From: Pseudomonas chlororaphis subsp. piscium
GTDB lineage: Bacteria; Pseudomonadota; Gammaproteobacteria; Pseudomonadales; Pseudomonadaceae
Length of the DNA: 64,000 nt
Reading direction: 5' to 3'
Assembly (NCBI RefSeq): GCF_003850345.1
Contig: NZ_CP027707.1
Span: 6,129,001-6,193,000 of the forward strand
Shown: positions 31,469 to 50,674 of the stretch, one piece after another
How positions within the stretch are numbered: position 1 is the first letter of the stretch
Layout of the letters: every line of letters begins with the position of its first letter
The notes under the pieces: generated by a model
The model's database searches: none
Told to the model about the DNA's origin: nothing
The model's input: only the letters and a program-made list of their open reading frames with translations
Position numbers and translations under genes: made by a program

Positions 31469-31483
31469 GTTCGATTATCGAAC
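31469..31483. promoter_or_regulatory. PcaR-type palindrome upstream of aroQ
   Basis: GTTCGATTATCGAAC is a perfect dyad, 114 bases before aroQ. It matches the motif GTTCGATAATCGCAC that I recall for IclR-family regulator PcaR. A near-identical copy precedes quiC1. Confidence 0.65.
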
Positions 31484-31597: not shown

Positions 31598-32047
31598 ATG
31601 CGCCCTATCGTTCTGGTGCTCAACGGCCCGAACCTGAACCTGCTCGGCACCCGCGAACCCGCCACTTACGGTCACGAGACCCTGGCCGACATTTCCGCCC
31701 AGTGCGGGCGTGCCGCCGAGGAGTTCGGCCTGACCGTGGAGTTTCGCCAGACCAACCACGAAGGCGAACTGCTGGACTGGATTCACGGCGCTCGTGGCCG
31801 TTGCGCCGGGATCCTGATCAACCCGGCGGCCTGGACCCACACCTCGGTGGCGATCCGCGATGCCCTGGTGGCCAGCGAACTGCCGGTGATCGAAGTGCAC
31901 CTGTCGAACGTCCACGCCCGCGAACCCTTCCGCCATCACTCCTTTGTCTCGGGCATCGCCCTGGCGGTCATGTGCGGCTTCGGCAGCCATGGCTATCGCC
32001 TGGCACTGGCGCACTTCAGCCAGCGTTTTCAAGGAGCCCAGGCATGA
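31598..32047 (+). CDS. aroQ: Type II 3-dehydroquinate dehydratase, catabolic copy
   Basis: A 149-residue type II enzyme that interconverts 3-dehydroquinate and 3-dehydroshikimate. NGPNLNLLG, the catalytic tyrosine loop GTREPATYG (Y24) and [11 protein letters not shown] are diagnostic. It overlaps the next gene, an AroE-like dehydrogenase, by an ATGA. The neighbours (quiC1, MFS, pcaGH) indicate quinate/shikimate breakdown rather than aromatic amino acid synthesis; from memory the match is PA0245 (aroQ2). Two candidate operators lie in the 256 bases between it and hasI. Confidence 0.95.
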
Positions 32048-32898
32048 CCCAGCAGAACACAGTACTGGCCGGACTGATCGGCGCCGGCATCCAGGCCTCG
32101 CGCACCCCGGCACTGCATGAGCACGAAGGCGACGCCCAGGGCCTGCGCTACCTGTACCGGCTGATCGACCTGGACCAGCTGCAACTCGACAGCAACGCCC
32201 TGCCCGACCTGCTACTGGCCGCCGAGCGCATGAACTTCACCGGGTTGAACATCACCTTTCCCTGCAAGCAGAGCATCATCCCGTTGCTCGATGAGCTGTC
32301 GCCCGAGGCCCGCGGCATCGGCGCGGTGAACACAGTGGTGCTCAAGGACGGCAAGCGCGTCGGCCACAACACCGACTGCCTGGGTTTTGCCGAAGGTTTC
32401 CGCCGCGGCTTGCAGGGCGTGGCCCTGGAGCGTGTGGTGCAGATGGGCGCCGGCGGCGCCGGTGCGGCGGTGGCCCATGCGCTGCTCAGCGAAGGCGTGC
32501 AGCAGCTGAGCATCTTCGATGTGGAAAGCGCCCGCGCCCAGAGCCTGGCAGATAACCTCAACCAGCATTTCGGCCCCGGCCGGGCCAAGGCCGGCGTCGA
32601 CCTGCCCACCACCCTGGCCGCCGCCGACGGCCTGGTGAACACCACACCGATGGGCATGGCCAAGCTGCCGGGCATGCCGGTGCCGGTCGAGTTGCTGCGC
32701 CCTGAGCTGTGGGTCGCGGAGATCGTCTACTTCCCCTTGGAAACCGAGTTGCTGCGCAATGCCCGCGCCCTCGGTTGCCGCACCCTGGACGGCGGCAACA
32801 TGGCGGTATTTCAGGCGGTGAAGGCGTTCGAGCTGTTCAGCGGCGTGGCGCCGGATGCCCAGCGCATGCTCGCGCATTTCCAGAGCATGAATGGCTGA
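32044..32898 (+). CDS. Shikimate/quinate dehydrogenase, AroE family
   Basis: A 284-residue NAD(P)-dependent dehydrogenase. The substrate lysine is in NITFPCKQ, followed by NTDCLGF and the dinucleotide motif [15 protein letters not shown]. Absence of the basic NRT-type residues of NADP-specific AroE hints at NAD use and so at catabolism of shikimate or quinate, which fits its coupling to aroQ. The start at 32044 overlaps the aroQ stop. Which of the two substrates it prefers cannot be told by eye. Confidence 0.9.
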
Positions 32899-36607: not shown

Positions 36608-38518
36608 CTACAACTTGGCGTGCCGCACCGCGCCACTGCGCGACTTGGCCATGGCCGCCAGGCGCACCGCGACGTTCGCCGCGCCATAGCCGACATAGCC
36701 ATTCTTGCGCTGGATGATCTCAAAGAAGAAGCGCCCCTCGAACGGCTCGGTGTAGACGTGGAACAGCTCGCCGCCCTGGGCGTCACGGTCGTAGAGCACG
36801 TTGTAGTAGGCCAGCTCGCTGAGGAACTCGTCGTCGAAATCGAAGCGTGCCGCCAGGTCGTCGTAATAGTTCAGCGGGATGTCCAGCAGCGGTACACCCG
36901 CCTCCTTGGCCCGGCTGACTTCGGCAAAGATGTCGTCGCAATCGAAGGCGATATGATGCACGCCCGAGCCGCCATAGCTGGACAGCGCATGGGAGATCGC
37001 GGTCTTGCGGTTCTCGGAAATGTTCAGCGGCAACCGAATGGTGCTGCAACGGCTGCGCAGCGCCCGGCTCTTCACCAGCCCGTAGGGGTCGGGCAGCACC
37101 ACTTCGTCGTCGGCGGTGAAATCCAGCAGGCTCTTGTAGAACAGCACCCAGCTGTCGAGGTTGTCGGCCGGCAGTGCCATGGCCATGTGGTCGATGCGCT
37201 TGAGGCCGCCCTTGGCCACCACCCCGGGAAGCATATTGAAATCGGTGTCGTACAGGTTCTGCCCGCCCTGCTCCTGATCCACCAGGTAGATCAGGCTGCC
37301 ATCCAGCTCGCGCACGGCGGCCAGTTCCAGTTCGTTGGGGCCCACCAGCCCGCGGTACGGCTGGCCCTTGTAGGCTACCGCGCGCTCCAGCGCCTTGGCG
37401 CTGTCCTTGACCCGGATCGCCGTGGCGCACACCGAAGGGCCGTGAGCTTCGAAGAAGCTGTGGGCGAAGGAATAAGGCTCGGAGTTGAGGATCAGGTTGA
37501 TATCGCCCTGGCGCATCAGGCTGACGTTCTTCGAGCGGTGCTGGCCGGCCTTGGCAAACCCCAGGCGTTCCAGCCAGCCGCCGAGCTTGGCGCCCAGCGC
37601 TTCGTCCACGGCGAACTCGAGAAACTCGGTGCCGCCGTATTCACTGGCCGGCGGCGGCGCGAACAGCGTATCGATATTGGCCACGGGCGTGGCTTCCTGC
37701 GCCAGGCGCTGACGGGTTTTCTCTTCGAGGTACAGCAGCGAACGCAGGCCGTCCGCGGCGTTGGCCCGGGGTGGCGCGGCGCGGAAACCGTCGTTGAAGA
37801 TCTCCAGGGACAAAGGCCCGGTGTAGCCGCTCTTGATGATCGGCGCGAGGAACCCCGGCAGGTCGAAATCGCCCTGCCCCGGGAAGCAGCGAAAATGCCG
37901 GCTCCACTCCAGCACGTCCATGGCCAGGATCGGCGCGTCGGCCATCTGCACGAAGAAGATCTTGTCCCCAGGAATCTCGGCGATCGCCGCCGGGTCGCCC
38001 TTGAGCGACAGGGTGTGGAAGCTGTCGAGCAGCACGCCCAGGCTTGGATGGTCGGCCTCGCGGACGATGTCCCAGACCTGTTGATAAGTATTGACGTGCC
38101 GGCCCCAGGCCAGGGCTTCGTAGCCGATCCGCAGGCCACGGCTGCCAGCGCGCTCGGCCAGCAGGCGCAGGTCGTCCACCAGGATCTGCCGGTCGCCGAC
38201 ACTGTCGGCCGCGGCATTGCTGCACACCAGCACCAGGTCGGTGCCCAGTTCCTGCATCAGGTCGAACTTGCGCTCGGCACGCTCCAGGTTGCGTTGCAAG
38301 CGGTCGCGGCGGCAGCCTTCGAAGTCGCGAAAGGGTTGGAACAGGGTGATGGCGATGCCCAGGTCCGCGCACATCTGGCGGATTTCCCGAGGGCTGCCGT
38401 CGTAGTAGAGCAGGTCGTTCTCGAAAATCTCCACGCCGTCGAAACCGGCGGCGGCGATGGCTTCGAGTTTTTCCGGCAGGGTACCGCTCAAGGAGACGGT
38501 GGCAATGGAACGCTGCAT
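36608..38518 (-). CDS. quiC1: 3-Dehydroshikimate dehydratase QuiC1, fused to an HPPD-like domain
   Basis: A 636-residue two-domain protein. The N-terminal TIM barrel (about 1-290) converts 3-dehydroshikimate to protocatechuate; its metal tetrad E134, D165, Q191 and E239 and H168 are all present. The C-terminal half is a vicinal-oxygen-chelate domain like 4-hydroxyphenylpyruvate dioxygenase, ending FEGRFFFEIIQRKNGY. This fusion is the QuiC1 type known from Pseudomonas; the second domain's activity is unclear. It is divergent from an MFS transporter across 580 bases and is followed by the TetR gene. Confidence 0.95.
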   Translation of the reverse strand: MQRSIATVSLSGTLPEKLEAIAAAGFDGVEIFENDLLYYDGSPREIRQMCADLGIAITLFQPFRDFEGCRRDRLQRNLERAERKFDLMQELGTDLVLVCSNAAADSVGDRQILVDDLRLLAERAGSRGLRIGYEALAWGRHVNTYQQVWDIVREADHPSLGVLLDSFHTLSLKGDPAAIAEIPGDKIFFVQMADAPILAMDVLEWSRHFRCFPGQGDFDLPGFLAPIIKSGYTGPLSLEIFNDGFRAAPPRANAADGLRSLLYLEEKTRQRLAQEATPVANIDTLFAPPPASEYGGTEFLEFAVDEALGAKLGGWLERLGFAKAGQHRSKNVSLMRQGDINLILNSEPYSFAHSFFEAHGPSVCATAIRVKDSAKALERAVAYKGQPYRGLVGPNELELAAVRELDGSLIYLVDQEQGGQNLYDTDFNMLPGVVAKGGLKRIDHMAMALPADNLDSWVLFYKSLLDFTADDEVVLPDPYGLVKSRALRSRCSTIRLPLNISENRKTAISHALSSYGGSGVHHIAFDCDDIFAEVSRAKEAGVPLLDIPLNYYDDLAARFDFDDEFLSELAYYNVLYDRDAQGGELFHVYTEPFEGRFFFEIIQRKNGYVGYGAANVAVRLAAMAKSRSGAVRHAKL

Positions 38519-38661: not shown

Positions 38662-38676
38662 GTGCGATTATCGAAC
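38662..38676. promoter_or_regulatory. PcaR-type site upstream of quiC1
   Basis: GTGCGATTATCGAAC; its complement is GTTCGATAATCGCAC, identical to the PcaR motif as I recall it. It is 143 bases before the quiC1 start. Confidence 0.7.
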
Positions 38677-39099
38677 AAAATGGCCGTTGGCGAATTGACG
38701 ATTTTTCGTCCACTGCGCACCATCGACAGCACATTGAGCCGGCACCGAACCGCTGGCTTCAATCGCCAAAGACCCAGAACACACCATAAAAATTTCAAAA
38801 ATCGGGTACACCCTCATGCTTGCACTCAACGCCACACCTCTCTGCCTGGTCCTCCGGCTCTCACCCGGCCACACCTCCAACCGCCGCCTTCAGACGGACG
38901 CACTACGGCCCCTGGGCTGAACCGTGCTTGCACGCTGACCCGACCGCTTTCAATCGCCGCGCCCGATGCGCGTCGAGCAAAGCACTCAGCCGATCGATCA
39001 TTGCGTTCACCCGCGACCCGTCCGCCCAGCCGACGATCGATCACGCGCCCTTGAGTCCCGACGAGTTGTCCCTCGTCAGTCATTGAACGGATGGCACAC

Positions 39100-40437
39100 A
39101 TGATTCCTTCTCAAAGCTCCCGCATGGCCCCGAGCGTCGGCACCGCCTCCGGCGGCATCGGCGACAAGATCCGCGGCGCCATGGCGGTCGGCAAGACCCG
39201 CTGGGGCATGCTCGCCCTGGTGTTCTTCGCCACCACCCTGAACTACATCGACCGCGCCGCACTGGGTGTGATGCAGCCGATCCTGGCCAAGGAAATGAGC
39301 TGGACGGCGATGGACTACGCCAACATCAACTTCTGGTTCCAGGTCGGCTACGCCATCGGTTTCGTCCTGCAAGGACGGCTGATCGACCGGGTCGGCGTCA
39401 AGCGCGTGTTCTTCTTCGCCGTGCTGCTGTGGAGCCTGGCCACCGGCGCTCACGGCCTGGCCACTTCGGCCGCGGGCTTCATGGTCTGCCGCTTCATCCT
39501 CGGGCTGACCGAGGCCGCCAACTACCCGGCCTGCGTGAAGACCACGCGCCTGTGGTTCCCGGCCGGCGAACGCGCCGTGGCCACCGGCATCTTCAACGCC
39601 GGGACCAACGTCGGCGCCATGTTCACCCCGATGCTGCTGCCGTTGATCCTGCACGCCTGGGGCTGGCAGGCGGCGTTCCTCTGCATGGCCGCGCTGGGCG
39701 CTGTCTGGCTGCTGTTCTGGGGCCTGAAGTACTTCAACCCGGAAGATCACCCGACCGTCAAACAGTCCGAGCTCGAGTACATCCAGAAAGAAGTCGAACC
39801 GGAACAGACCCGCGTGCCCTTCTCGCGCATCCTGCGCATGCGCGGCACCTGGGCCTTCGCCCTGGCCTACTCAATCACCGCGCCGGTGTTCTGGTTCTAT
39901 CTGTACTGGCTGCCACCGTTCCTCAACCAGCAGTACAACCTGGGCATCAACGTGACCCAGATGGGCATCCCGCTGATCATCATCTACCTGACCGCCGACT
40001 TCGGCAGCGTCGGCGGCGGTATCCTCTCGTCGTTCCTGATCGGCCGCGGCGTCAACCCGATCAAGGCGCGCCTGATGTCCATGCTGCTGTTCGCCTGCTG
40101 CATCGTCAGCGTGGTCATGGCCGCCGGCGCCAGCAACCTGTGGATCGCGGTGCTCGCCATCTCCCTGGCCATCGGCGCGCACCAGGCCTGGACCGCCAAC
40201 ATCTGGAGCCTGGTGATGGACTACACGCCCAAGCACATGATGAGCACGGTGTTCGGTTTCGGCGGCATGTGCGCAGCCATCGGCGGCATGTTCATGACCC
40301 AGCTGGTGGGCCACATCCTGACCGTCACCAACAACAACTACACCGTGCTGTTCACCCTGATCCCGGCGATGTACTTCATCGCCCTGACCTGGATGTACTT
40401 CATGGCCCCCCGCAAGATTCCGAAAGTAGAAGACTGA
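39100..40437 (+). CDS. MFS transporter (anion:cation symporter type), probably quinate/shikimate uptake
   Basis: About 445 residues with twelve helices. Motif A variant GRLIDRVGVKRVFF follows helix 2, and TTLNYIDRAALGVMQP opens helix 1, typical of the ExuT/GudP-like anion:cation symporters that carry sugar acids and hydroxy-acids. ATG at 39100 is preferred (AACGGA eight bases ahead) over ATG at 39091. Divergent from quiC1, which suggests import of quinate, shikimate or 3-dehydroshikimate. Followed by a strong terminator. Confidence 0.85.
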   Translation: MIPSQSSRMAPSVGTASGGIGDKIRGAMAVGKTRWGMLALVFFATTLNYIDRAALGVMQPILAKEMSWTAMDYANINFWFQVGYAIGFVLQGRLIDRVGVKRVFFFAVLLWSLATGAHGLATSAAGFMVCRFILGLTEAANYPACVKTTRLWFPAGERAVATGIFNAGTNVGAMFTPMLLPLILHAWGWQAAFLCMAALGAVWLLFWGLKYFNPEDHPTVKQSELEYIQKEVEPEQTRVPFSRILRMRGTWAFALAYSITAPVFWFYLYWLPPFLNQQYNLGINVTQMGIPLIIIYLTADFGSVGGGILSSFLIGRGVNPIKARLMSMLLFACCIVSVVMAAGASNLWIAVLAISLAIGAHQAWTANIWSLVMDYTPKHMMSTVFGFGGMCAAIGGMFMTQLVGHILTVTNNNYTVLFTLIPAMYFIALTWMYFMAPRKIPKVED

Positions 40438-42144: not shown

Positions 42145-43023
42145 TCAGCCCCGGCGCTGTTGCCAGGCAGCCGCCAGGCCGCTGAGGCAGATCACCGCGA
42201 TACCCAGCTGGGTGATCGGCTGCGGCGTATGGCTGAACAACAGCCAGCCCAGCAGCCCGGCGAAGACGATCTGGCAATAGCCGAACGGCGCCAGCAGGGC
42301 CGGTGCCGCGAGGCGAAATGCCTGGGTCAGGAACAGGTGGGCGGTCATGCCGCAGGCCCCCAGCGCCAGCATCAGCACACCATGGAAAAAACTCGGCACC
42401 TGCCAGAAGAACGGCACCAGCGCGCTCATCACCAGGGTGTTGCACAGGCCGGCGAAGAAGTTGCTGGTGGTCGGGCTGTCGTGCTCGGCGAGCTTGCGGG
42501 TCAGCAGTTGGTAAAAGCAGAAAAACAGCGCCGAGCAGAAAGGCAGCAGCACCGCCGGGGTGAACAGATCGCCGCCCGGGTGAACGATGATCAGCACGCC
42601 GATAAAACCACAGATCACCGCCAGCCACTGGCCCTTCGTGACTCGCTCGCCCAGCAGCGGCACCGACAGCGCGGTGACCAGCACCGGTGCCAGGAAGTTG
42701 ACCGCCGTAGCTTCGGCCAGAGGGATAAACAGCAGCGCCGAGGTGAACAGCAGGCTGGTGCTGAGCAGGCACAAGGCCCGCGCCAGCTGCAGTAACGGCC
42801 GCTTGGTGCGCAACACCCGCAGGCCCGATTGCGGCAGGAAGATCCCAGCCATCAGCAGGGTATGAATCAGGTAGCGAGCCCAGACCACCATCACGATCGG
42901 ATAGAACCCCGAGAGGTATTTCGACAGGGCGTCGTGGCTGGAAAACAGAAAGGTCGCCACGACGACCAGCAGGATGCCCTTGAAGGGCTGGTTGACACCG
43001 GAAAGGGGTGTGCTGAGGGTCAT
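42145..43023 (-). CDS. EamA/DMT-family transporter
   Basis: A 292-residue protein with ten hydrophobic helices in two EamA repeats, for example LLVVVATFLFSSHDALSKYL in the first and PFCSALFFCFYQLLTRKLA at the start of the second. Direction and substrate are unknown. It meets the chemoreceptor gene end to end (stops adjacent) and lies downstream of the barrel and Gfo/Idh genes on the same strand, separated from them by a REP pair. It may be part of that catabolic set. Confidence 0.88.
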   Translation of the reverse strand: MTLSTPLSGVNQPFKGILLVVVATFLFSSHDALSKYLSGFYPIVMVVWARYLIHTLLMAGIFLPQSGLRVLRTKRPLLQLARALCLLSTSLLFTSALLFIPLAEATAVNFLAPVLVTALSVPLLGERVTKGQWLAVICGFIGVLIIVHPGGDLFTPAVLLPFCSALFFCFYQLLTRKLAEHDSPTTSNFFAGLCNTLVMSALVPFFWQVPSFFHGVLMLALGACGMTAHLFLTQAFRLAAPALLAPFGYCQIVFAGLLGWLLFSHTPQPITQLGIAVICLSGLAAAWQQRRG

Positions 43024-43065
43024 CCGCGGGGTCTCTCAAGATAGGTTTTGTTTGTAGAAACAGCT

Positions 43066-43127
43066 TCGCGGGCAAGCCTCGCTCCTACGGTCAACACCGT
43101 CTGTAGGAGCGAGGCTTGCCCGCGATT
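43066..43127. repeat. REP pair, family 1
   Basis: TCGCGGGCAAGCCTCGCTCC from 43066 and the inverse copy TGTAGGAGCGAGGCTTGCCC from 43102, only 13 bases apart, between the EamA and barrel genes. Confidence 0.82.
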
Positions 43128-43147
43128 GGGGTCATACGGACTACCCA

Positions 43148-43963
43148 CTAGAGCCGGGCCAACAACGCCCGGGTCTTGTCCAACGCCATCTGCGCCCGCT
43201 CCAGGGCGCCGACGCCCTGCTCGAGCAATTTCACCGTGGGGATCTCCAGGCTCAACGGCAGGTTGGCCGGCAGACAACGCAAGAGCCCCGCCAGGTCGCA
43301 ATCGCCATCCCCGGGGAAACGCCGCTCGTTACGGGCCTGGCGCAGGATCTCCTGCATGTCGTCCGGTCGCGGGCCGGCCACGTCGCACAGCTGGGCATAA
43401 CGCAGCCGTGACGGCGCGACCTTTGCCAGATCCTCCAGGCGCGAGGCCGAGCGATCGAAGTGGAACGCGTCCACCAGCACCGCGGCGTTGTCGCGACCGG
43501 CGTTCTCCACCACCCGCACCGCCTGCTCCAGGTTGCGCACATCGGTCCAGGGCATGAACTCCAGGTGCGGGTGCAAGCCGTAGATCGACGCCAGGTCGCA
43601 AAGTTCGGCGAAGCGTTCGGTCATGCGCCCCTCGTCGGGGTCGTTGCCGGCCACCAGCAGCTCGCTGGCGCCGAACTCGGCGCCGACCGCCAGCACCGCC
43701 TCGAAATCCGCCACCCGGGTTTGTGGCTTGAGCCGCAGGATCTCCACATCCAGCACACCGACGCCAGTGTCGCGCAGGCGGCTCAGGGTCTGTCGGCGCA
43801 GATCGGCATCGGCCACCAGGGCAAAGTGATGCTCCTCCGGTGTCGCCGGCACCAGGCGCAAACCAACGTGGCTGTAACCGGCGCGGGCCGCGACCTCGAC
43901 CATCTGCGGCGGTGAAATCTCCAGCACCGTGAGGCTGGCCAGGGAAAGAATACGCTCGCTCAT
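43148..43963 (-). CDS. Sugar-phosphate isomerase/epimerase-like TIM barrel, paralogue of the QuiC1 domain
   Basis: A 271-residue AP-endonuclease-2-like barrel. Its likely metal tetrad is E135 (HLEFMPW), D165 (LVDAFHFD), Q191 (AQLCD) and E240 (SLEIPT), almost the same positions as E134, D165, Q191, E239 of QuiC1. RFPGDGDCDLAGLL also mirrors the QuiC1 FPGQGDFDLPGFL. It lacks the HPPD-like half. It may be a dehydratase or isomerase for a cyclitol-like acid. ATG at 43963 has GAGGG six bases before; ATG at 43969 overlaps the preceding gene's stop. Coupled to the Gfo/Idh gene. Confidence 0.88.
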   Translation of the reverse strand: MSERILSLASLTVLEISPPQMVEVAARAGYSHVGLRLVPATPEEHHFALVADADLRRQTLSRLRDTGVGVLDVEILRLKPQTRVADFEAVLAVGAEFGASELLVAGNDPDEGRMTERFAELCDLASIYGLHPHLEFMPWTDVRNLEQAVRVVENAGRDNAAVLVDAFHFDRSASRLEDLAKVAPSRLRYAQLCDVAGPRPDDMQEILRQARNERRFPGDGDCDLAGLLRCLPANLPLSLEIPTVKLLEQGVGALERAQMALDKTRALLARL

Positions 43964-43965
43964 GC

Positions 43966-45021
43966 TCATCCCTCGATCAGCGCCGGGGCACAGGCGCGAC
44001 CGGTCGCTGCCGCTTCGCGGATCGCCTCGATCAGCGCCAGGGTCCGCGCCGCATCGGCCACGCTGACCAGCGGCTCGACCTCGCGCCGCGCCACTTTGAC
44101 GAAATGCTGCAATTGCAGGCGCAGGGCTTCGGCGGCTGTGAAAGGTTCCTCGACCGCCAGCAATGGCTGATGCCAGCCAGCACCAGCCTCGGCGTACTGC
44201 CAGCGCTTGAGTTGCGGAATGCTCAGGGCGCCACCGGTGCCGGCCAGCAAATAGCACGGCTGGTCGGCCTGGCGCGGGTACACCGGGTTCTCGCCGGAAT
44301 CCAGCTCCCAGCTCCAGGGCGCCGCCACCGCGTCGGAACCGGTCAGGCTGCCCAGGGCGCCGTTGGCGAATTGCAGCAGGACGGCGGCGCAATCCTCGTT
44401 GGCGAAACCGCGCACCGCGTTGCTGGTGACGGCCTGCACCTGATGCACCTCACCACACAGGTGACGCAGCAGGTCGAGGTCGTGAATCAGGTTGGTCAGC
44501 AGCATTCCGGCCCCGGGTTCGCGGCGCCAGGGAATCTCGAAATAACTGTCGGGCTTCTGCAATTGCCAGAGCGCGGTGACCGTGGTCAATCGCCCCAGTG
44601 CCCCGCCCTGCACCAGCGCATGAGCGTGGACGATCAGCGGGTTGTGGCGACGATGATGGCCCACCAGCACCGGCACTCCGCTGCTTTTCACGGCGGCGAC
44701 CAGTTCACGGACTTCATCCAGGTGCACGCCGACCGGTTTTTCCAGCAGCACCGGTACCCCGGCCGCCAGGCAATCCAGGGCGGTGCTGACGTGCAGGTTG
44801 TTCGGGTTGGCGACTATCACCGCGTCGGGGCGGGCCTGTTCGAGCATCTGTCGATAGTCGGAGTAATACGCCACCTCCCACTGTGCGGCGATGCCGGCGG
44901 CTTGCGGGCCGGGATCGGCCACGGCGCAGAGCCTGGCTTCGGTCAGGGTCTTGAGGTGCTGGTAATGCTGCTGGCCCATGTTGCCGGCGCCGATCAAGGC
45001 AATGCGCAAAGGTGAGTCCAA
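43966..45021 (-). CDS. Gfo/Idh/MocA-family NAD(P)-dependent oxidoreductase
   Basis: A 351-residue dehydrogenase: Rossmann motif IALIGAGNMGQQHYQ at the N terminus, the catalytic lysine in EKPVG near residue 95, and the HDLDLLRHL segment that binds substrate in inositol dehydrogenase-like enzymes. Such enzymes oxidise a ring hydroxyl of sugars, inositols or related cyclic polyols. It precedes and is coupled to the barrel gene. Two candidate operators (45070-45084 and 45113-45127) lie in its promoter. The substrate is unknown; a quinate-like compound is a hypothesis from context. Confidence 0.9.
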   Translation of the reverse strand: MDSPLRIALIGAGNMGQQHYQHLKTLTEARLCAVADPGPQAAGIAAQWEVAYYSDYRQMLEQARPDAVIVANPNNLHVSTALDCLAAGVPVLLEKPVGVHLDEVRELVAAVKSSGVPVLVGHHRRHNPLIVHAHALVQGGALGRLTTVTALWQLQKPDSYFEIPWRREPGAGMLLTNLIHDLDLLRHLCGEVHQVQAVTSNAVRGFANEDCAAVLLQFANGALGSLTGSDAVAAPWSWELDSGENPVYPRQADQPCYLLAGTGGALSIPQLKRWQYAEAGAGWHQPLLAVEEPFTAAEALRLQLQHFVKVARREVEPLVSVADAARTLALIEAIREAAATGRACAPALIEG

Positions 45022-45069
45022 GGCGGGATCCTCTTGTGATTGTTATCGGAACGCGAGATTTAAAATATT

Positions 45070-45084
45070 TAGAACCTGGTTCCA
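45070..45084. promoter_or_regulatory. Candidate IclR operator before the Gfo/Idh gene
   Basis: TAGAACCTGGTTCCA agrees at 11 of 15 positions with TGGAATCAAGTTCCA, the palindrome before the flavoprotein gene. It lies 48 bases before the start codon. Confidence 0.55.
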
Positions 45085-45112
45085 CTTTCACACAAGAGCA
45101 AAACAAAATAGT

Positions 45113-45127
45113 GTCCGATCAGCGAAC
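45113..45127. promoter_or_regulatory. Weaker PcaR-type site before the Gfo/Idh gene
   Basis: GTCCGATCAGCGAAC differs from GTTCGATTATCGAAC at three of fifteen positions. Confidence 0.4.
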
Positions 45128-45149
45128 AGCTTTAAGGATGACTTGAATG

Positions 45150-45238
45150 TGTAGGAGCGAGGCTTGCCCGCGATCAGGGCAGCGAGGCACGGCAGAAGGT
45201 CGCGTCACGCCTATCGCGGGCAAGCCTCGCTCCTACAC
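45150..45238. repeat. REP pair, family 1
   Basis: TGTAGGAGCGAGGCTTGCCC from 45150 and the inverse GGGCAAGCCTCGCTCCTACA ending 45237. It fills most of the gap between the Gfo/Idh promoter and the end of the IclR gene. Confidence 0.82.
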
Positions 45239-45254
45239 AAAAAGAAAATATGGC

Positions 45255-46031
45255 TCAGCTGAAAAGCTCGGAAGCCTGGCTGGCAGCCGAGAGTTCATCA
45301 GTGAACTTCAACAGCAGTGGCGCCAGTTCATGCAGGCGCGCCAGCGGCATGCGCGCGCTCGGGCCGGCGATGCTCAGCACCCCGACCACCCGGCCATCGA
45401 CCGGGTGACGCACCACCGCGGCCACCGCCGAGGTGCCCACCGCCGAACTTTCCTCGACCCAGGCGTAGCCTTGCTCCCGGGCCAGGCGCAGGCGTTCGAG
45501 CAGCTCGATGTTCGAGCGCGGCGCGTTCGGGCCCAGGTCCGCGGGAATCTCGGCAGCCTGGCGCTCCACCAGCGACAAGGCCTCGGCATCACTCAGGCAG
45601 GCCAGCCAGGCGTGCCCGGAAGCGGTATAGAACAGCGGCGCCTCACGCCCCATGTCGGGGTCGTAGCGCAACCCGGAACGGGCGCCCTGGGACTTGGCGA
45701 TCCAGGTCTGGCGCTCGTCCTCGATCACCCCGAGGCGCACCAGTTCGCCGGTTTCCTGGGCCAGCCGGTCGAGCACCGGCTGGACGATGTCCGCGCCGCT
45801 GCTGGACAGGTAGCGAAAGCCCATGGCCACCAGCTTGGTCGACAGGTGATAACGCAGGTTGTCCGGGTTCTGCCGTACGTAACCCAGGCGGATCAGCTCC
45901 GCCAACAGCCGGTGGGTGGCGCTTTTGGGGATGTCCAGTTGCTCGGCCAGGGTCTGCATCGGCAGGCCGCGGGGGTCACTGGTAAGACTTTCCAGAACGC
46001 TGAAGACGCGCTCGATTTGACTGCCGGCCAT
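45255..46031 (-). CDS. IclR-family transcriptional regulator
   Basis: A 258-residue regulator: N-terminal winged helix with LAEQLDIPKSATHRLLAELIRLGYV (about 29-53) and a C-terminal GAF-like effector domain containing FYTASGHAWLAC and VVGVLSIAGPSARM. The start at 46031 (MAGSQIERVF) is the normal family start; the open frame reaches further up. It sits between the Gfo/Idh promoter and the divergent flavoprotein gene and probably controls both through TGGAA-N5-TTCCA sites. It does not look like PcaR itself. Confidence 0.92.
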   Translation of the reverse strand: MAGSQIERVFSVLESLTSDPRGLPMQTLAEQLDIPKSATHRLLAELIRLGYVRQNPDNLRYHLSTKLVAMGFRYLSSSGADIVQPVLDRLAQETGELVRLGVIEDERQTWIAKSQGARSGLRYDPDMGREAPLFYTASGHAWLACLSDAEALSLVERQAAEIPADLGPNAPRSNIELLERLRLAREQGYAWVEESSAVGTSAVAAVVRHPVDGRVVGVLSIAGPSARMPLARLHELAPLLLKFTDELSAASQASELFS

Positions 46032-46100
46032 GGTCGGGTCCAGACGAAATTTGGCCGATTCTAGTGACAACCGGCGCAATGGGAAACACACCGCGGCATC

Positions 46101-46115
46101 GTTCGATAACCGCCC
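46101..46115. promoter_or_regulatory. PcaR-type site between the IclR and flavoprotein genes
   Basis: GTTCGATAACCGCCC matches GTTCGATAATCGCAC at 13 of 15 positions. It is 69 bases before the IclR gene and 125 bases before the flavoprotein gene. Confidence 0.55.
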
Positions 46116-46183
46116 ATAAAAACCTCGGCATGGCGCAGATGATCCTGCCCTCGCCTTGCTGCCGACTATTCGACTCCGTATAT

Positions 46184-46206
46184 TTTTTGGAATCAAGTTC
46201 CAAAAA
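46184..46206. promoter_or_regulatory. Perfect IclR-type palindrome before the flavoprotein gene
   Basis: TTTTTGGAA and TTCCAAAAA are perfect 9-base arms around TCAAG, 34 bases before the flavoprotein start. The core TGGAA-N5-TTCCA has the layout of known IclR operators. Confidence 0.7.
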
Positions 46207-46240
46207 TAATAACTGTTCGTTTAACGGAGTTGCTTCTTCC

Positions 46241-47968
46241 ATGCCTGCCACCGCCTCCCCGCACCACCCCGATATCGATTGCGACGTGCTGGTCGTCGGC
46301 TCCGGCGCCGCCGGCCTCTCGGCGGCCGTGACCGCGGCCTGGCATGGCCTGAAGGTCATAGTGGTGGAGAAAGACCCGGTGTTCGGCGGCGCCACCGCCT
46401 GGTCCGGCGGCTGGGCCTGGGTGCCGTGCAACCCGCTGGCGCGACGGGCCGGCATAGTCGAGGACGTGGAACTGCCGCGCACCTACCTGAAACACGAACT
46501 GGGCGAACGCTACCAGCCAGCACTGATCGACGCCTTCCTCGAAGCCGGCCCGCGCATGGTGTCGTTCTTCGAGCGCCATACCGCGCTGCAATTCGCCGAC
46601 GGCAACGCCATCGCCGATATCCACGGCGATACGCCGGGCGCCGGCACCGGCGGACGCTCGGTGATCGCCGCGCCCTACGATGGGCGCGAGGTCGGCAAAC
46701 TGCTCAAGCGCCTGCGCAAGACCCTGCGCGAAACCTCGTTCATGGGCATGCCGATCATGGCCGGCGCCGACCTTGCGGCGTTCCTCAACCTGAGCCGTTC
46801 GCTGCCGGCGGCCTGGCATGTGAGCAAGCGCTTCGGCCGCCACCTGCGCGACCTCGTCACTCACCGCCGCGCCCTGCAACTGGTCAATGGCGTGGCATTG
46901 GTGGCGCGCCTGGCCAAGTCGGCGGAGGACCTTGGCGTGCTGCTCTGGGAATCGGCGCCGGTCGCCGAGCTGCTGCGCGACGGCGACGCGGTGACGGGGG
47001 CGATTGTCAGCATCGCCAGCCGGGGCCCCATTCGGATCCGCGCCCGCAAAGCGGTGGTGCTGGCGGCCGGCGGTTTCCCCAACGACATCGAGCGGCGCAA
47101 AGCGCTGTTCCCACGCACGCCCACCGGCCACGAGCATCTGGCCCTGCCACCCTTGGCGGTCTCGGGCGACGGCTTGCGCCTGGGGGAAAGCGTCGGCGCC
47201 CGGGTCGATACCGACATGGCATCGCCCGTGGCCTGGGCCCCGGTTTCCGCGGTGCCTTACAAGGACGGCAGCCGCGGGCATTTCCCGCACATCATCGAGC
47301 GTGGCAAACCGGGGATCATCGGTGTCCTGCGCAACGGCCAGCGCTTCGTCAACGAAGCCGACGGTTACTACGACTATGTGCGGGCGATGGTCGCGGCGGC
47401 CCCCGAGGGCGAAGAAGTGGCGTCGTGGCTGATCTGCAGCCACAGGTTCCAGCGCTTGTATGGCCTGGGCATCTCCCGGCCCTTCCCCGTGCCGCTGGCG
47501 CCCTTTATCCGCAGTGGCTACCTGAAACGCGGCGACAGCATCGAGGCGCTGGCCCAGGCCTGCGGCATCGATGCGGACGGCCTGCGCGCCACCCTGGCGG
47601 AATACAACCGGCATGCCCGACAAGGCCACGACCCGCAGTTCGGCCGAGGCTCGACGCCCTACAACCGCAAGCAGGGTGACCCGCGCCAGCAACCCAACCC
47701 GTGCGTGGCGCCCATCGAGCAGGGGCCGTTCTACGCGGTGAAAGTCCAGCCGGGCTGCTTCGGCACCTTCGCCGGGCTCAAGGTCAATCCCCACGCCCAG
47801 GTGCTCGACGGCCAGGGCCAGGCCATCGCCGGCCTGTACGCCGCCGGTAGCGACATGGCCAGCATCATGGGCGGCCACTACCCCGCCGGCGGTATCAATC
47901 TCGGCCCGGCGCTGACCTTCGGCTATATCGCCGGTCGGCACATCGCCGGGGCCAGCGCTTATGAATAA
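46241..47968 (+). CDS. FAD-dependent dehydrogenase of the 3-ketosteroid-delta1-dehydrogenase/fumarate reductase family
   Basis: A 575-residue flavoprotein. The N terminus has the dinucleotide motif DVLVVGSGAAGLSAAVTA and EKDPVFGGATAWSGG; the C terminus has GGHYPAGGINLGPALTFGYI, which includes the Tyr-x3-Gly pair used for ketone binding in KstD. Such enzymes introduce a double bond next to a ring ketone. ATG at 46241 is used (GGAG eleven bases ahead); the open frame extends upstream through the promoter. Divergent from the IclR gene. I infer it desaturates or aromatises a cyclohexanone-type intermediate. Confidence 0.88.
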   Translation: MPATASPHHPDIDCDVLVVGSGAAGLSAAVTAAWHGLKVIVVEKDPVFGGATAWSGGWAWVPCNPLARRAGIVEDVELPRTYLKHELGERYQPALIDAFLEAGPRMVSFFERHTALQFADGNAIADIHGDTPGAGTGGRSVIAAPYDGREVGKLLKRLRKTLRETSFMGMPIMAGADLAAFLNLSRSLPAAWHVSKRFGRHLRDLVTHRRALQLVNGVALVARLAKSAEDLGVLLWESAPVAELLRDGDAVTGAIVSIASRGPIRIRARKAVVLAAGGFPNDIERRKALFPRTPTGHEHLALPPLAVSGDGLRLGESVGARVDTDMASPVAWAPVSAVPYKDGSRGHFPHIIERGKPGIIGVLRNGQRFVNEADGYYDYVRAMVAAAPEGEEVASWLICSHRFQRLYGLGISRPFPVPLAPFIRSGYLKRGDSIEALAQACGIDADGLRATLAEYNRHARQGHDPQFGRGSTPYNRKQGDPRQQPNPCVAPIEQGPFYAVKVQPGCFGTFAGLKVNPHAQVLDGQGQAIAGLYAAGSDMASIMGGHYPAGGINLGPALTFGYIAGRHIAGASAYE

Positions 47969-48167: not shown

Positions 48168-48773
48168 TCAGAAATCGAAGAACACCGTCTCCCCTTCCCC
48201 CTGGATGCGGATATCGAACCGGTACGCCCGCTGCCCGTCCACCTCACAGGGATGGGCCAGCAGGGTGTCGCGCCGTTGCGGCTGCTCGATCAGGTTCAGC
48301 ACCGGGCAGGCGGCGTTGGCTTCGGCTTCGTCGGCGAAATACAGGCGGGTGTGCAGGTGGATGTTGATCCCCCGGGCGAACAGCGCCACGTTGATATGCG
48401 GCGCCATCGGCACCCCGACAGCATTCTTCACCACGCCCGGCTTGATGGTGTGCAGCGTCCACTCGCCGGCATCGAAAGTGGTGGCCGTGCGCCCGAAGCT
48501 GTTGAAGGCTTTCTCCGAATCGAACAACGGGTCGTAGACGCCCTCGTGGTTGGCTTGCCAGAACTCGAGGAACGAGTCGCGCACCAGGTGGCCGTTGCCG
48601 TCATACACGTGGCCGATCAGCAGGATCTTTTCCCCCTGGGCATCGGGTCCGGCCATCCGGTTCCAGATCTCGTCGCTGCGGGTCGGGTTGCCCGCGGCAG
48701 CCAGCGCCAGGCCGATGTGCACGTAAGGGCCGGCCGTTTGCGAGGGGGTTTCAGGCAGCAATTGGATAGGCAT
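48168..48773 (-). CDS. pcaG: Protocatechuate 3,4-dioxygenase alpha subunit
   Basis: A 201-residue intradiol dioxygenase subunit, the exact length I recall for P. putida PcaG. SQTAGPYVHIGLA near the N terminus and IRIQGEGETVFFDF at the C terminus are diagnostic. The alpha subunit builds the (alpha-beta-Fe)12 complex but does not hold iron. It follows pcaH after 10 bases. Confidence 0.97.
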   Translation of the reverse strand: MPIQLLPETPSQTAGPYVHIGLALAAAGNPTRSDEIWNRMAGPDAQGEKILLIGHVYDGNGHLVRDSFLEFWQANHEGVYDPLFDSEKAFNSFGRTATTFDAGEWTLHTIKPGVVKNAVGVPMAPHINVALFARGINIHLHTRLYFADEAEANAACPVLNLIEQPQRRDTLLAHPCEVDGQRAYRFDIRIQGEGETVFFDF

Positions 48774-48783
48774 GGCAGGCTCC

Positions 48784-49503
48784 TCAGCAATTCTCGAAGT
48801 GGGTTTTGCGCTGGCCGCGCAACACGATGTCGAAGCGATAGGCCAGGCAGTCCATCGGGTTGGCGCTGCTCATGTCCAGGCGCGCGATCAGGCTCTGCAC
48901 CGCGTCCGGGTTGGCGATCGACTTGACGATCGGGCACAGCGGAATCAGCGGGTCGCCTTCGAAATACAGCTGGGTGATTAACCGCGTGGCGATCGAGGGC
49001 CCGCTGATGGAGAAATGGATATGCGCCGGGCGCCAGTCGTTCGGGCCGTTGCGCCATGGGTAAGGACCGGGCTTGATGGTGCGGAAGCTGTAGTAGCCGT
49101 CACGGTCGGTCAGGGCCCGGCCGACGCCGCCGAAATTCGGATCCAGGGGCGCCAGGTAGCGGTCGTTCTTGTGCCGGTAGCGACCACCGGCGTTGGCTTG
49201 CCACATCTCCACCAGGGTGTGGGGAATCGGCTGGCCGTACTGATCGCAGACCCGACCGGCAACGATGATTCGCTCGCCCACCGGCAAGCCGCCGTTATTG
49301 AAGTTGAGCAGCAGGTCGTTATCGAAACGCCCGGTCTTCAGATGGGAGAAATCGGGGCCACTGGTCTCGCTCGGCGATTGCGGGATGCTCACCAGCGCCT
49401 GGCGCGGCGAACGGGCCACGGAGGTCTTGTAGTCGGGGGTCAGGGCCTTGGGATGCCAATTACGGTCACGGATAACGAAACGACTGCTGTCTGCATCAGA
49501 CAT
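48784..49503 (-). CDS. pcaH: Protocatechuate 3,4-dioxygenase beta subunit (iron-binding)
   Basis: A 239-residue catalytic subunit that opens protocatechuate to 3-carboxy-cis,cis-muconate. Iron ligands are in place (numbered with Met): Y109 (GRYRHK), Y148 (KPGPYPW), H161 and H163 (PAHIHF). AGGAG lies 6 bases before the ATG at 49503, and the same region is part of a long hairpin. The PcaQ box at 49595-49610 is its likely activator site. The lower ketoadipate genes are not in this window. Confidence 0.97.
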
Positions 49504-49594: not shown

Positions 49595-49610
49595 ATAACC
49601 AAGAGGTTAT
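49595..49610. promoter_or_regulatory. PcaQ operator upstream of pcaHG
   Basis: ATAACCAAGAGGTTAT fits the ATAACC-N4-GGTTA(A/T) motif reported for PcaQ in Sinorhizobium. It overlaps the stop codon of pcaQ and is about 92 bases before the pcaH ATG. Confidence 0.78.
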
Positions 49611-50536
49611 GGATAACGCCCCTCGCGATAGGCTTGCCCAACCTCCCGCAGCACCTCGACGCACCATTGCGCCGCCAGCGACAGCGGCAGGCTGGCATTG
49701 CTGGAGATGCCCACCGAGCCACCCGGCTCGCGCTGCCCGAGGTCGATCTCGCGCAGCTCGCCATTGGCCAGGTCCAGGCGTACCGCATCCAGCGGGGCGA
49801 TCCACAGTGCATCGCTGGACAGCGCATAGCGCCGGCTCAGGGCCACTGAGAGGGTTTCCAGGCGCTGGCGCGACTGGCTGATGCCGCACTGCACGAACAG
49901 GCTGTCGGCGAACTTGCGGATGGTGGTGCCGGCCAGCGGCAGCACCAGCGGGTACTGCTCCAGCGCATGCCGGTTCAATGGCCCGTTCAGCAACGGATGA
50001 TCGGGGCGCGCCACCAGAGTCATGGACTCACTGTACAGATGCTCGAAGCTCAGGCCCTGGATCTGCGGACTGTCCGTCATGCGCCCGACCACCAAGTCGA
50101 CATCGCCGACCCGCAACTGCGACAGCAGATAGGCGCTGGGGCCGGTGACCACACTCACCACCAGCGCCGAATGCCGTTCGTGCAGGCGCCGCACCACCTC
50201 CGGCAGCAGCAGGCTTTCGGCGGTCGAGAGCACACCCAGGCGTACCACACCGGCGGCATATTCACCGCCGCGCAAGGTGTTCACCCCCTCGCGCAGGGCC
50301 TGCACCGAGGGCCCGGCGTAACGCAGAAAAGCCATTCCCGCCTCGGTCAGGCTGAGCCCGGCCTTGCTCCGGGCGAACAGCCGGGTGTCGAGCAGCTCTT
50401 CCAGTTCCTTGAGGGTTTTCGACATCGCCGGCTGGCTCACCGCGAGCACATCCGCCGCCCGCGCCAGGCTGCCCTGACGAGACATTTCAAGAAAACATAC
50501 GAGGTGACGGAATTTGATACGGGTATCGATGTTCAA
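49607..50536 (-). CDS. pcaQ: LysR-family activator PcaQ
   Basis: About 309 residues. The N-terminal helix-turn-helix includes IKFRHLVCFLEMSRQGSLARAA (about 6-27) and VSQPAMSKTLKELEELL; the rest is the LysR co-inducer domain. The IKFRHL start region and position before pcaHG identify PcaQ, which in other bacteria responds to 3-carboxymuconate. The start is taken as TTG at 50536, giving the family N terminus MNIDTRIKF; an ATG at 50596 would add 20 unlike residues. The PcaQ box at its own end supports the identification. Confidence 0.88.
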   Translation of the reverse strand: MNIDTRIKFRHLVCFLEMSRQGSLARAADVLAVSQPAMSKTLKELEELLDTRLFARSKAGLSLTEAGMAFLRYAGPSVQALREGVNTLRGGEYAAGVVRLGVLSTAESLLLPEVVRRLHERHSALVVSVVTGPSAYLLSQLRVGDVDLVVGRMTDSPQIQGLSFEHLYSESMTLVARPDHPLLNGPLNRHALEQYPLVLPLAGTTIRKFADSLFVQCGISQSRQRLETLSVALSRRYALSSDALWIAPLDAVRLDLANGELREIDLGQREPGGSVGISSNASLPLSLAAQWCVEVLREVGQAYREGRYP

Positions 50537-50674
50537 AGGAGGCCCCGGATGTGTCGCAATAGGATCGATGCGGCTGCGGGCAATGGTAGCGTGCATGCAA
50601 ATGGCTGACGACCGGACTGGCGTCAGCTCTACTCACCAGCAACACTGATCAGCAAATAAGACGAGGGTTCACCC

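Follow-up and report, generated by a model that had tools for sequence, protein, structure and literature searches.

A candidate gene module feeding protocatechuate beside the quinate genes of Pseudomonas chlororaphis subsp. piscium

In the breakdown of quinate, the C1 hydroxyl of the ring is removed by 3-dehydroquinase to leave a C1=C2 double bond, and flavoproteins of the KstD type dehydrogenate the carbon pair beside a ketone, as on 3-keto-4-ene steroids. The breakdown of quinate and the desaturases of the ChcC type have each been described on their own; what seems to be new in the locus described here is their combination. The locus lies in a stretch of 64,000 nucleotides of P. chlororaphis subsp. 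piscium (contig NZ_CP027707.1, positions 6,129,001 to 6,193,000; hereafter the window), from a genome that consists of a single contig of 7.07 Mb. It contains, among genes of quinate catabolism, those of a Gfo/Idh-type dehydrogenase (gfo), a single-domain barrel (tim), an IclR-family regulator (iclR) and a KstD-type flavoprotein (kstD). We consider it reasonably probable, at about 0.6, that gfo-tim, iclR and kstD form a peripheral module that would turn a hydroaromatic acid into protocatechuate, partly under common control with the quinate pathway. At the level of sequence comparison, linkage, co-occurrence and operator motifs give good support to a role in feeding protocatechuate; the substrate, the order of the steps, the effector and the pairing of regulators with motifs are what we infer.

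A gene set beside the quinate genes

Between 31.6 and 50.6 kb of the window there is a hydroaromatic supercluster, in the order aroQ, aroE-like, TetR-type regulator, quiC, MFS (major facilitator superfamily), chemoreceptor, EamA, barrel, Gfo/Idh, IclR, KstD-type flavoprotein, pcaG, pcaH and pcaQ (Table 1). A first-pass annotation had set five genes, from EamA to the flavoprotein, between quiC with quinate transport and pcaHG, a placement confirmed by gene coordinates and families, and had proposed that together they feed protocatechuate. In a sample of 149 genomes of the same genus (thresholds of E<=1e-50 for the barrel, E<=1e-150 for the flavoprotein and E<=1e-60 for Gfo/Idh), the barrel was present in 47, the flavoprotein in 46 and a Gfo/Idh match in 46, the latter with at least 70% identity in 37 genomes and 42-45% in nine. 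The flavoprotein occurred in 46 of the 47 barrel genomes (the exception being G146) and in 0/102 of the others (Fisher p 7e-38, uncorrected for shared ancestry). Moreover, quiC and a pcaH homologue were each found in 47/47 barrel genomes, in comparison with 76/102 and 79/102, respectively, of those lacking the barrel, so that the outcome named beforehand as contrary to the proposal, a set mostly occurring in the absence of protocatechuate genes, did not arise. By our reading, the sole pcaH of 13 barrel genomes is of a type ~52-53% identical to that of the window. The distance between barrel and quiC was below 10 kb in 33 of these genomes and larger on the same contig in nine, with the two genes on different contigs in five.

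As a comparison, 17 same-genus loci without the barrel were taken around quiC. In these loci quiC stands with a TetR-type gene and mostly with an MFS gene, pcaH was called in 11, and gfo, tim and kstD are absent. EamA was called beside quiC in 14/17 (the group L220-L232 and L238; not L219, L233 and L234) and was rejected as a member of the pathway, contrary to the earlier proposal, as it is found next to quiC also where the module is lacking; both EamA and the MFS transporter were assigned to the quinate locus because they are present beside quiC in these barrel-negative loci. The idea of a fixed set of five genes did not hold either, since several loci with the barrel and the flavoprotein lack Gfo, which outside the genus is found in only one of 11 loci with both. 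The core of the module is gfo-tim, iclR and kstD. Genes were called by a purpose-written script that misses some of them (the barrel was labelled in 58 of 80 loci that hold it by tblastn), many loci come from related strains and some are represented twice; the labels TetR, chemoreceptor, thiolase, CoA-transferase and ABC transporter, and most pca genes of the locus headed by pcaR (L262), were assigned by eye.

Some departures from this core were observed. An orphan iclR stands in two loci where the module is missing (L221, 13758-14501, 84%; L229, 6637-7419, 79%), as would be expected had the module been lost, and may be a trace of such a loss. G061 and G071 carry an unlinked kstD of the same clade as the window flavoprotein. 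In two genomes (loci L084 and L086, with L085 and L087), gfo-tim-iclR has an unlinked kstD of that clade elsewhere, and an aldo-keto reductase gene takes the position beside iclR where kstD normally stands.

Three layouts recur in the genus, the first being that of the window. In the second (L068, L070-L072, L077 and L079), tripartite carboxylate-transporter genes and an OprD porin come after quiC, EamA and the gfo-tim-iclR part, with TctB, TctC and OprD identified by Pfam. In the third (L064-L067 and L074), quiC lies outside the locus, 66-76 kb off in two genomes and on another contig in three, and the module neighbours a quinate-type MFS gene, two more KstD types, a NIPSNAP gene, an AroE-like gene and a PcaR/PcaU-type regulator; in L066 this regulator reaches 313.6 bits, above the family cut-off of 284.75, and the AroE-like protein is under the AroE cut-offs. 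This second block (KstD types, NIPSNAP, AroE-like and PcaR/PcaU-type genes) may act on still more reduced ring acids. Another locus, L095 (3398-13131), holds three KstD-type genes, two NIPSNAP-cluster genes, an AroE-like gene and a short-chain dehydrogenase/reductase that reaches 177 bits with ChcB2 (cut-off 350) and 181 bits with models of the DhbA type.

Across 398 genomes of the phylum, the barrel was found in 21, the window genome included. Outside this genome there were 24 matches in 20 genomes, and the 20 stretches examined, from 17 genomes, cover 21 of them. Within about 10 kb, these stretches contain a KstD-type gene in 11 cases, an AroE-like gene in 13, a QuiC-type gene in seven and a Gfo match in seven. 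Nine of the 11 with KstD have an AroE-like gene and one (L209) a Gfo match, and therefore the dehydrogenase appears as the exchangeable part of the module, with Gfo as the variant of the genus. In another family of the same order (L199-L201), QuiC, aroE, aroQ and transporter genes accompany a barrel of 64-66% and a flavoprotein of 70-72% identity, and in L205 the module lies beside a putative thiolase, a putative CoA-transferase and a PcaR-like gene. Three control stretches of the window from outside 33-52 kb returned only its own aroQ and aroE.

Enzyme families and a proposed route to protocatechuate

The barrel has 273 residues and PF01261 only, without the HPPD-like C-terminal domain. Its initial description as QuiC1-like stands by profile, with QuiC1 (5hmq, E=2e-36) as the best match in the Protein Data Bank (PDB) of a 30-row profile, followed by Lmo2234 and then IolI, but not by the QuiC1 family model NF042435, to which it scores 32.8 bits, far under the cut-off of 1200. 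As a single sequence it is nearest to Lmo2234, and hhalign to the N-domain of QuiC gave 99.9%. The QuiC1 site is made up of R64, L97, E134, L136, D165, H168, Q191, S206, R210 and E239, as given in PMC7442255. Seven of these ten are identical in the window barrel, where R64, E134, D165, H168, Q191, R210 and E239 correspond to R79, E137, D167, H170, Q193, R216 and E242, and the changes are L97 to V, L136 to M and S206 to A. Among the 30 rows, E137, D167, R216 and E242 are kept in 30, H170 in 29, Q193 in 26 and R79 in 24, the equivalence of R79 being a gapless reading from a conserved DxG at a point where hhalign places a gap. In this regard, P. taiwanensis VLB120 has been reported to have three 3-dehydroshikimate dehydratase genes, quiC, quiC1 and quiC2 (PMC6581684 and PMC6882275), the last being PVLB_13075, and the genome of P. 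taiwanensis xwS3 holds one QuiC, the barrel and one weaker barrel. The barrel may already have been noted in the literature as a quiC gene, which would back its proposed role but remove the novelty of that part.

The flavoprotein belongs by score to the PRK06134 subfamily of FAD-dependent oxidoreductases (NF004789, 988.5 bits, above the cut-off of 747). Among NCBIfam models that name a reaction, the highest score was obtained with ChcC2, 4-oxocyclohex-2-ene-1-carboxylate 5-dehydrogenase (NF053677, 524.3 bits, under 900). The values for ChcC1 (NF053676, 295 bits) and for the 3-ketosteroid delta1-dehydrogenase models NF009478 (423.5 vs 789) and NF005882 (390.6 vs 788) are also under their cut-offs, and the nearest solved relative is 7p18, a 3-oxosteroid 1-dehydrogenase. 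The key residues of KstD1 are Y119, Y318, Y487 and G491 according to PMC5348764, and the last three correspond to Y376, Y547 and G551, kept in 30/30 aligned rows, in a mapping that assumes a 20-residue tag offset for chain 4c3x, an offset supported by the YPxxG match. In a tree, the flavoproteins of the window, L199, L200, L209 and L212 fell within one clade of 15 members (support 100/99), and those of L202 and L205 outside it. No second KstD was found in the window genome at E<=1e-150.

For the Gfo/Idh protein, the best curated match is iolG, inositol 2-dehydrogenase (TIGR04380), with 154.7 bits and thus under the cut-off of 355. Its profile matches best the oxidoreductase 3q2k, and also inositol dehydrogenases and 7wzd (9.8e-22), an entry named 4,5-dihydroxyphthalate dehydrogenase that exemplifies activity of this family on a ring carboxylate. 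The relatives at 42-45% identity in nine genomes stand beside aroQ in five of the nine loci (L094, L098, L101, L245 and L247), with barrel and flavoprotein in L093 and alone in the other three. The aroQ neighbours are type II 3-dehydroquinase genes, and the relatives next to them, 43-45% identical to the window protein, could possibly be an NAD-dependent, Gfo-type quinate dehydrogenase.

These family assignments fit the three types of reaction suggested at the outset, namely hydroxyl oxidation, dehydration and desaturation. In the route that we propose, the Gfo/Idh enzyme, or the AroE-like enzyme of other loci, would oxidise a ring hydroxyl to a C3 ketone, the QuiC-related barrel would eliminate the C5 hydroxyl as water to give a 4-ene-3-one, and the KstD-type flavoprotein would take hydrogen from C1-C2 beside the ketone, yielding a cross-conjugated dienone that is a tautomer of protocatechuate; the last two steps might also take place in reverse order. 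The most economical substrate would be a 3,4,5-trihydroxycyclohexane-1-carboxylate of the 1-deoxyquinate or dihydroshikimate type, for which the balance C7H12O5 - 2H - H2O - 2H gives protocatechuate. The flavoprotein would supply the C1=C2 bond because such a substrate has no C1 hydroxyl for 3-dehydroquinase to remove. The IclR protein, via its own palindrome, would respond to an effector specific to the module, and PcaR-type boxes would connect the module to the beta-ketoadipate regulon.

Operator motifs of the module and the quinate genes

The palindrome of the module is TGGAA-N5-TTCCA, which is exact before kstD (46188) and has one mismatch before gfo (45070). Its conserved placing is what counts, as at up to two mismatches the window has 20 matches vs 15.96 expected, with no excess. 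Counted in called genes of at least 50% identity with enough upstream sequence, the palindrome at up to one mismatch lies upstream of GFO in 80/93 relatives, KSTD in 86/98 and IclR in 86/107, in comparison with QuiC in 1/111, MFS in 0/104, EamA in 5/107, TetR in 0/105, pcaH in 0/35 and random stretches in 73/3000. In these promoter counts, the values of iclR and kstD are not independent, since the two genes have a single intergenic region between them; the same holds for quiC and MFS. Such placing would mark the module as one regulon, most simply that of its own IclR, a protein with 108.1 bits to TIGR02431 (PcaR/PcaU/PobR), under the cut-off of 284.75. The PcaR of the genome is encoded elsewhere (TIGR02431, 350.2 bits).

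The first-pass annotation had also claimed operator motifs shared with the quinate genes. The IclR palindrome was rejected as this shared operator, being almost absent from quinate promoters, and the claim was borne out instead by a PcaR-type box, which is weaker at gfo and at iclR/kstD. In the comparison of intergenic regions the longest words in common did not exceed in length those of many shuffles, and only the comparison of 15-mers pointed to the box, GTTCGATAATCGCAC, which we take to be the PcaR site of P. putida. At up to three mismatches the window contains nine matches (two sites counted on both strands) vs 1.01 expected, a number reached in 0/100 shuffles. At up to one mismatch the whole genome has five sites, two flanking pcaR, one each before quiC and aroQ, and the fifth at the junction of two putative ABC-transporter genes, compared with 0 for the reversed control pattern. 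Among relatives, the box at up to three mismatches was found upstream of QuiC in 109/111, aroQ in 75/84, IclR in 79/107 and MFS in 64/104, in comparison with TIM in 6/93, EamA in 5/107, TetR in 0/105, pcaH in 0/35 and random stretches in 102/2000. The quiC promoters of barrel-negative loci carry it at up to two mismatches in 17/17. The protein bound at these sites would be PcaR.

Table 1. Coordinates of genes and motifs in the window
Feature	Position	Strand	Basis or remark
PcaR-type box, 1 mismatch	31469..31483	-	upstream of aroQ
aroQ	31598-32047	+	tblastn 87% to L102 gene, which passes NF003806
aroE-like	32044-32898	+	tblastn 91% to L102 gene, which passes NF009201
quiC, two-domain 3-dehydroshikimate dehydratase	36608..38518	-	NF042435, 1298 bits vs cut-off 1200
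PcaR-type box GTTCGATAATCGCAC, exact	38662..38676	-	between quiC and MFS gene
MFS transporter, quinate locus	39091..40437	+	PF07690; adjoins quiC in most barrel-negative loci
Putative chemoreceptor, 540 aa	40522-42144		assigned by eye
EamA transporter	42145..43023	-	general quinate locus, outside the module
tim, single-domain AP_endonuc_2 barrel, proposed dehydratase of 3-dehydroshikimate dehydratase type	43148..43969	-	
gfo, Gfo/Idh-type dehydrogenase, proposed ring-hydroxyl oxidation	43966..45021	-	Pfam PF01408/PF02894
Module operator TAGAACCTGGTTCCA	45070..45084	+	upstream of gfo
PcaR-type box, 3 mismatches	45113..45127	-	gfo promoter region
iclR, putative local module regulator	45255..46031	-	PF09339/PF01614
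PcaR-type box, 2 mismatches	46101..46115	+	iclR/kstD promoter region
Module operator TGGAATCAAGTTCCA	46188..46202	+	between iclR and kstD
kstD, PRK06134/KstD-type FAD flavoprotein, proposed alpha,beta-desaturase	46241..47968	+	
pcaG and pcaH, protocatechuate 3,4-dioxygenase	48168..49503	-	TIGR02423 242 bits, TIGR02422 355 bits, each above cut-off
pcaQ	49607-50596		

The genes gfo and tim overlap by 4 bp and are probably one operon with gfo first, and iclR and kstD are divergently oriented. The genome has two copies of pcaH, the one of the window and another in the pca operon headed by pcaR (L262, 8925-10197), whose PcaH is 53% identical to that of the window. The nearest named relatives listed for the locus are Pseudomonas sp. 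NFIX28 and P. chlororaphis PCL1601, with barrel identities of 95% and 91%; P. protegens and P. fluorescens FW300-N2E3 also have the barrel locus. The putative chemoreceptor gene lies within the quinate locus and possibly serves chemotaxis toward hydroaromatic acids. REP-like inverted repeats with perfect arms of 23-27 bp flank gfo-tim (43066-43125 and 45148-45239), and their core recurs near 7.8 kb and 52.6 kb of the window. Rfam and tRNA scans across the window found nothing, and scans for sigma-70 promoters and terminators gave counts close to those of shuffles and were not used.

Alternative readings and relation to known systems

The link to protocatechuate proposed from the start is supported by co-occurrence, by neighbourhoods in several families and by the PcaR-type boxes, and several observations weigh against the proposed module. 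The genome counts are phylogenetically non-independent, only 14 of 80 named loci gave a pcaH call and Gfo at 70% identity or more is present in only 37 of the 47 barrel genomes, being missing beside the module in several loci of the genus (L089-L092) and in 10 of the 11 KstD loci of the phylum. A KstD-type gene is missing from nine of the 20 phylum stretches, where the barrels show 32-44% identity, compared with 40-66% for the others. Besides QuiC1, the barrel profile finds Lmo2234 (6.8e-34) and the isomerase IolI (1.2e-23), and Tyr119 of KstD1 is not conserved, corresponding to I127 at a variable position (Y in 9/30). The palindrome is also found at TIM in 17/93 genes and at the aldo-keto reductase in 7/57, and the PcaR-type boxes at gfo and kstD are degenerate, with up to three mismatches in 51/93 GFO and 56/97 KSTD relatives. 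Finally, none of the searches identified the proposed substrate as a natural growth substrate.

Sets of a Gfo dehydrogenase and an IolI-like isomerase are common in sugar loci, and the module might accordingly degrade a cyclitol or sugar of the inositol type without protocatechuate as a product. The best curated Gfo match, iolG at 154.7 bits under its cut-off, and the IolI match of the barrel profile agree with this, but we consider it very improbable in view of the quiC, aroQ, aroE and pca neighbourhoods in several families and of the PcaR-type boxes at the module; moreover, inositol breakdown has no obvious place for a KstD-type desaturase. The 524 bits of the flavoprotein to the ChcC2 desaturase model, together with relatives carrying two more KstD types and an AroE-like gene alongside, would instead suit cyclohexanecarboxylate-type acids without most hydroxyls, degraded as in the chc pathway to 4-hydroxybenzoate or protocatechuate. 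The score is under the ChcC2 cut-off of 900, the window genome is without a second KstD at E<=1e-150, and a QuiC-type dehydratase with a Gfo/AroE dehydrogenase suggests a polyhydroxylated substrate, which makes this reading rather unlikely. Dehydrogenation of C4-C5 of 3-dehydroshikimate, chemically feasible for a KstD-type enzyme, would give gallate and turn the module into a gallate branch of quinate and shikimate breakdown. A single LigB match, of 250 bits, was found in the window genome, and matches above 195 bits with an open frame of 414 or more residues (counted by eye, as frame and not gene length) were seen in 7/47 barrel genomes vs 3/102 others. By the same search, 23/47 barrel genomes have no LigB match above 190 bits (by eye), and so no gallate-dioxygenase-type gene by this test. 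The identified neighbours are quinate and pca genes, no search for gallate genes having been made in the loci. The LigB search thus renders gallate less likely as the product, and we regard a gallate branch as improbable.

Somewhat more weight, although still that of an unlikely case, may be given to a barrel that is merely a second, single-domain 3-dehydroshikimate dehydratase, with Gfo as an alternative quinate/shikimate dehydrogenase and the flavoprotein acting on a side substrate. The barrel keeps 7/10 of the QuiC1 site residues, relatives of Gfo adjoin aroQ, P. taiwanensis xwS3 has QuiC, the barrel and a weaker barrel, and three such genes are reported for P. taiwanensis VLB120 (PMC6581684). 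On the other hand, QuiC is already present in all 47 barrel genomes, and the tight co-occurrence and the operator common with kstD argue that the desaturase is integral. Returning to the proposed module for a hydroaromatic acid, it could tentatively be viewed, at rather less than even odds, as an undescribed third entry to protocatechuate in proteobacteria, in which a KstD-type enzyme replaces 3-dehydroquinase by forming C1=C2 oxidatively on a 1-deoxy acid of the dihydroshikimate type, accompanied by a dehydratase, a dehydrogenase, a regulator and an operator of its own. No description of the gene combination was recognised in the open-access literature searched, a scope that does not establish its absence from print. 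If true, the proposal would open an oxidative way for reduced hydroaromatic acids to enter the beta-ketoadipate pathway and would assign a function to a group of flavoproteins whose present annotation derives from steroid enzymes. New desaturases and dehydratases acting on rings would also become available for the production of aromatic acids, and the case would illustrate how names such as KstD, sugar isomerase and inositol dehydrogenase can mask one coherent pathway.

Among described systems, quinate/shikimate catabolism (quinate dehydrogenase, AroQ, AroE-like and QuiC1) shares with the module the locus, the proposed end product, a related dehydratase barrel and PcaR-type boxes, but it reaches C1=C2 through dehydration by 3-dehydroquinase, whereas the module has a flavin desaturase and its own IclR and operator. 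Among the 3-dehydroshikimate dehydratases (QuiC1, QsuB, AsbF and, possibly related, Listeria QuiC2), QuiC1 is nearest by profile to the barrel, which preserves the ligands of the metal and the active-site His of QuiC1 but is single-domain, without the HPPD-like C-terminal domain, and far under the QuiC cut-off. The 3-ketosteroid delta1-dehydrogenases (KstD1, 4c3x; 7p18) are of the same sequence family as the flavoprotein, with equivalents of Y318, Y487 and G491; in contrast, the latter lacks a conserved equivalent of Y119, is under the steroid-enzyme cut-offs and is encoded among hydroaromatic genes. The aromatisation desaturases ChcC1 and ChcC2 are likewise KstD-type flavoproteins and act on an alicyclic oxo acid, whereas the flavoprotein of the module, under both of their cut-offs, is paired with a QuiC-type barrel and a Gfo/AroE dehydrogenase.

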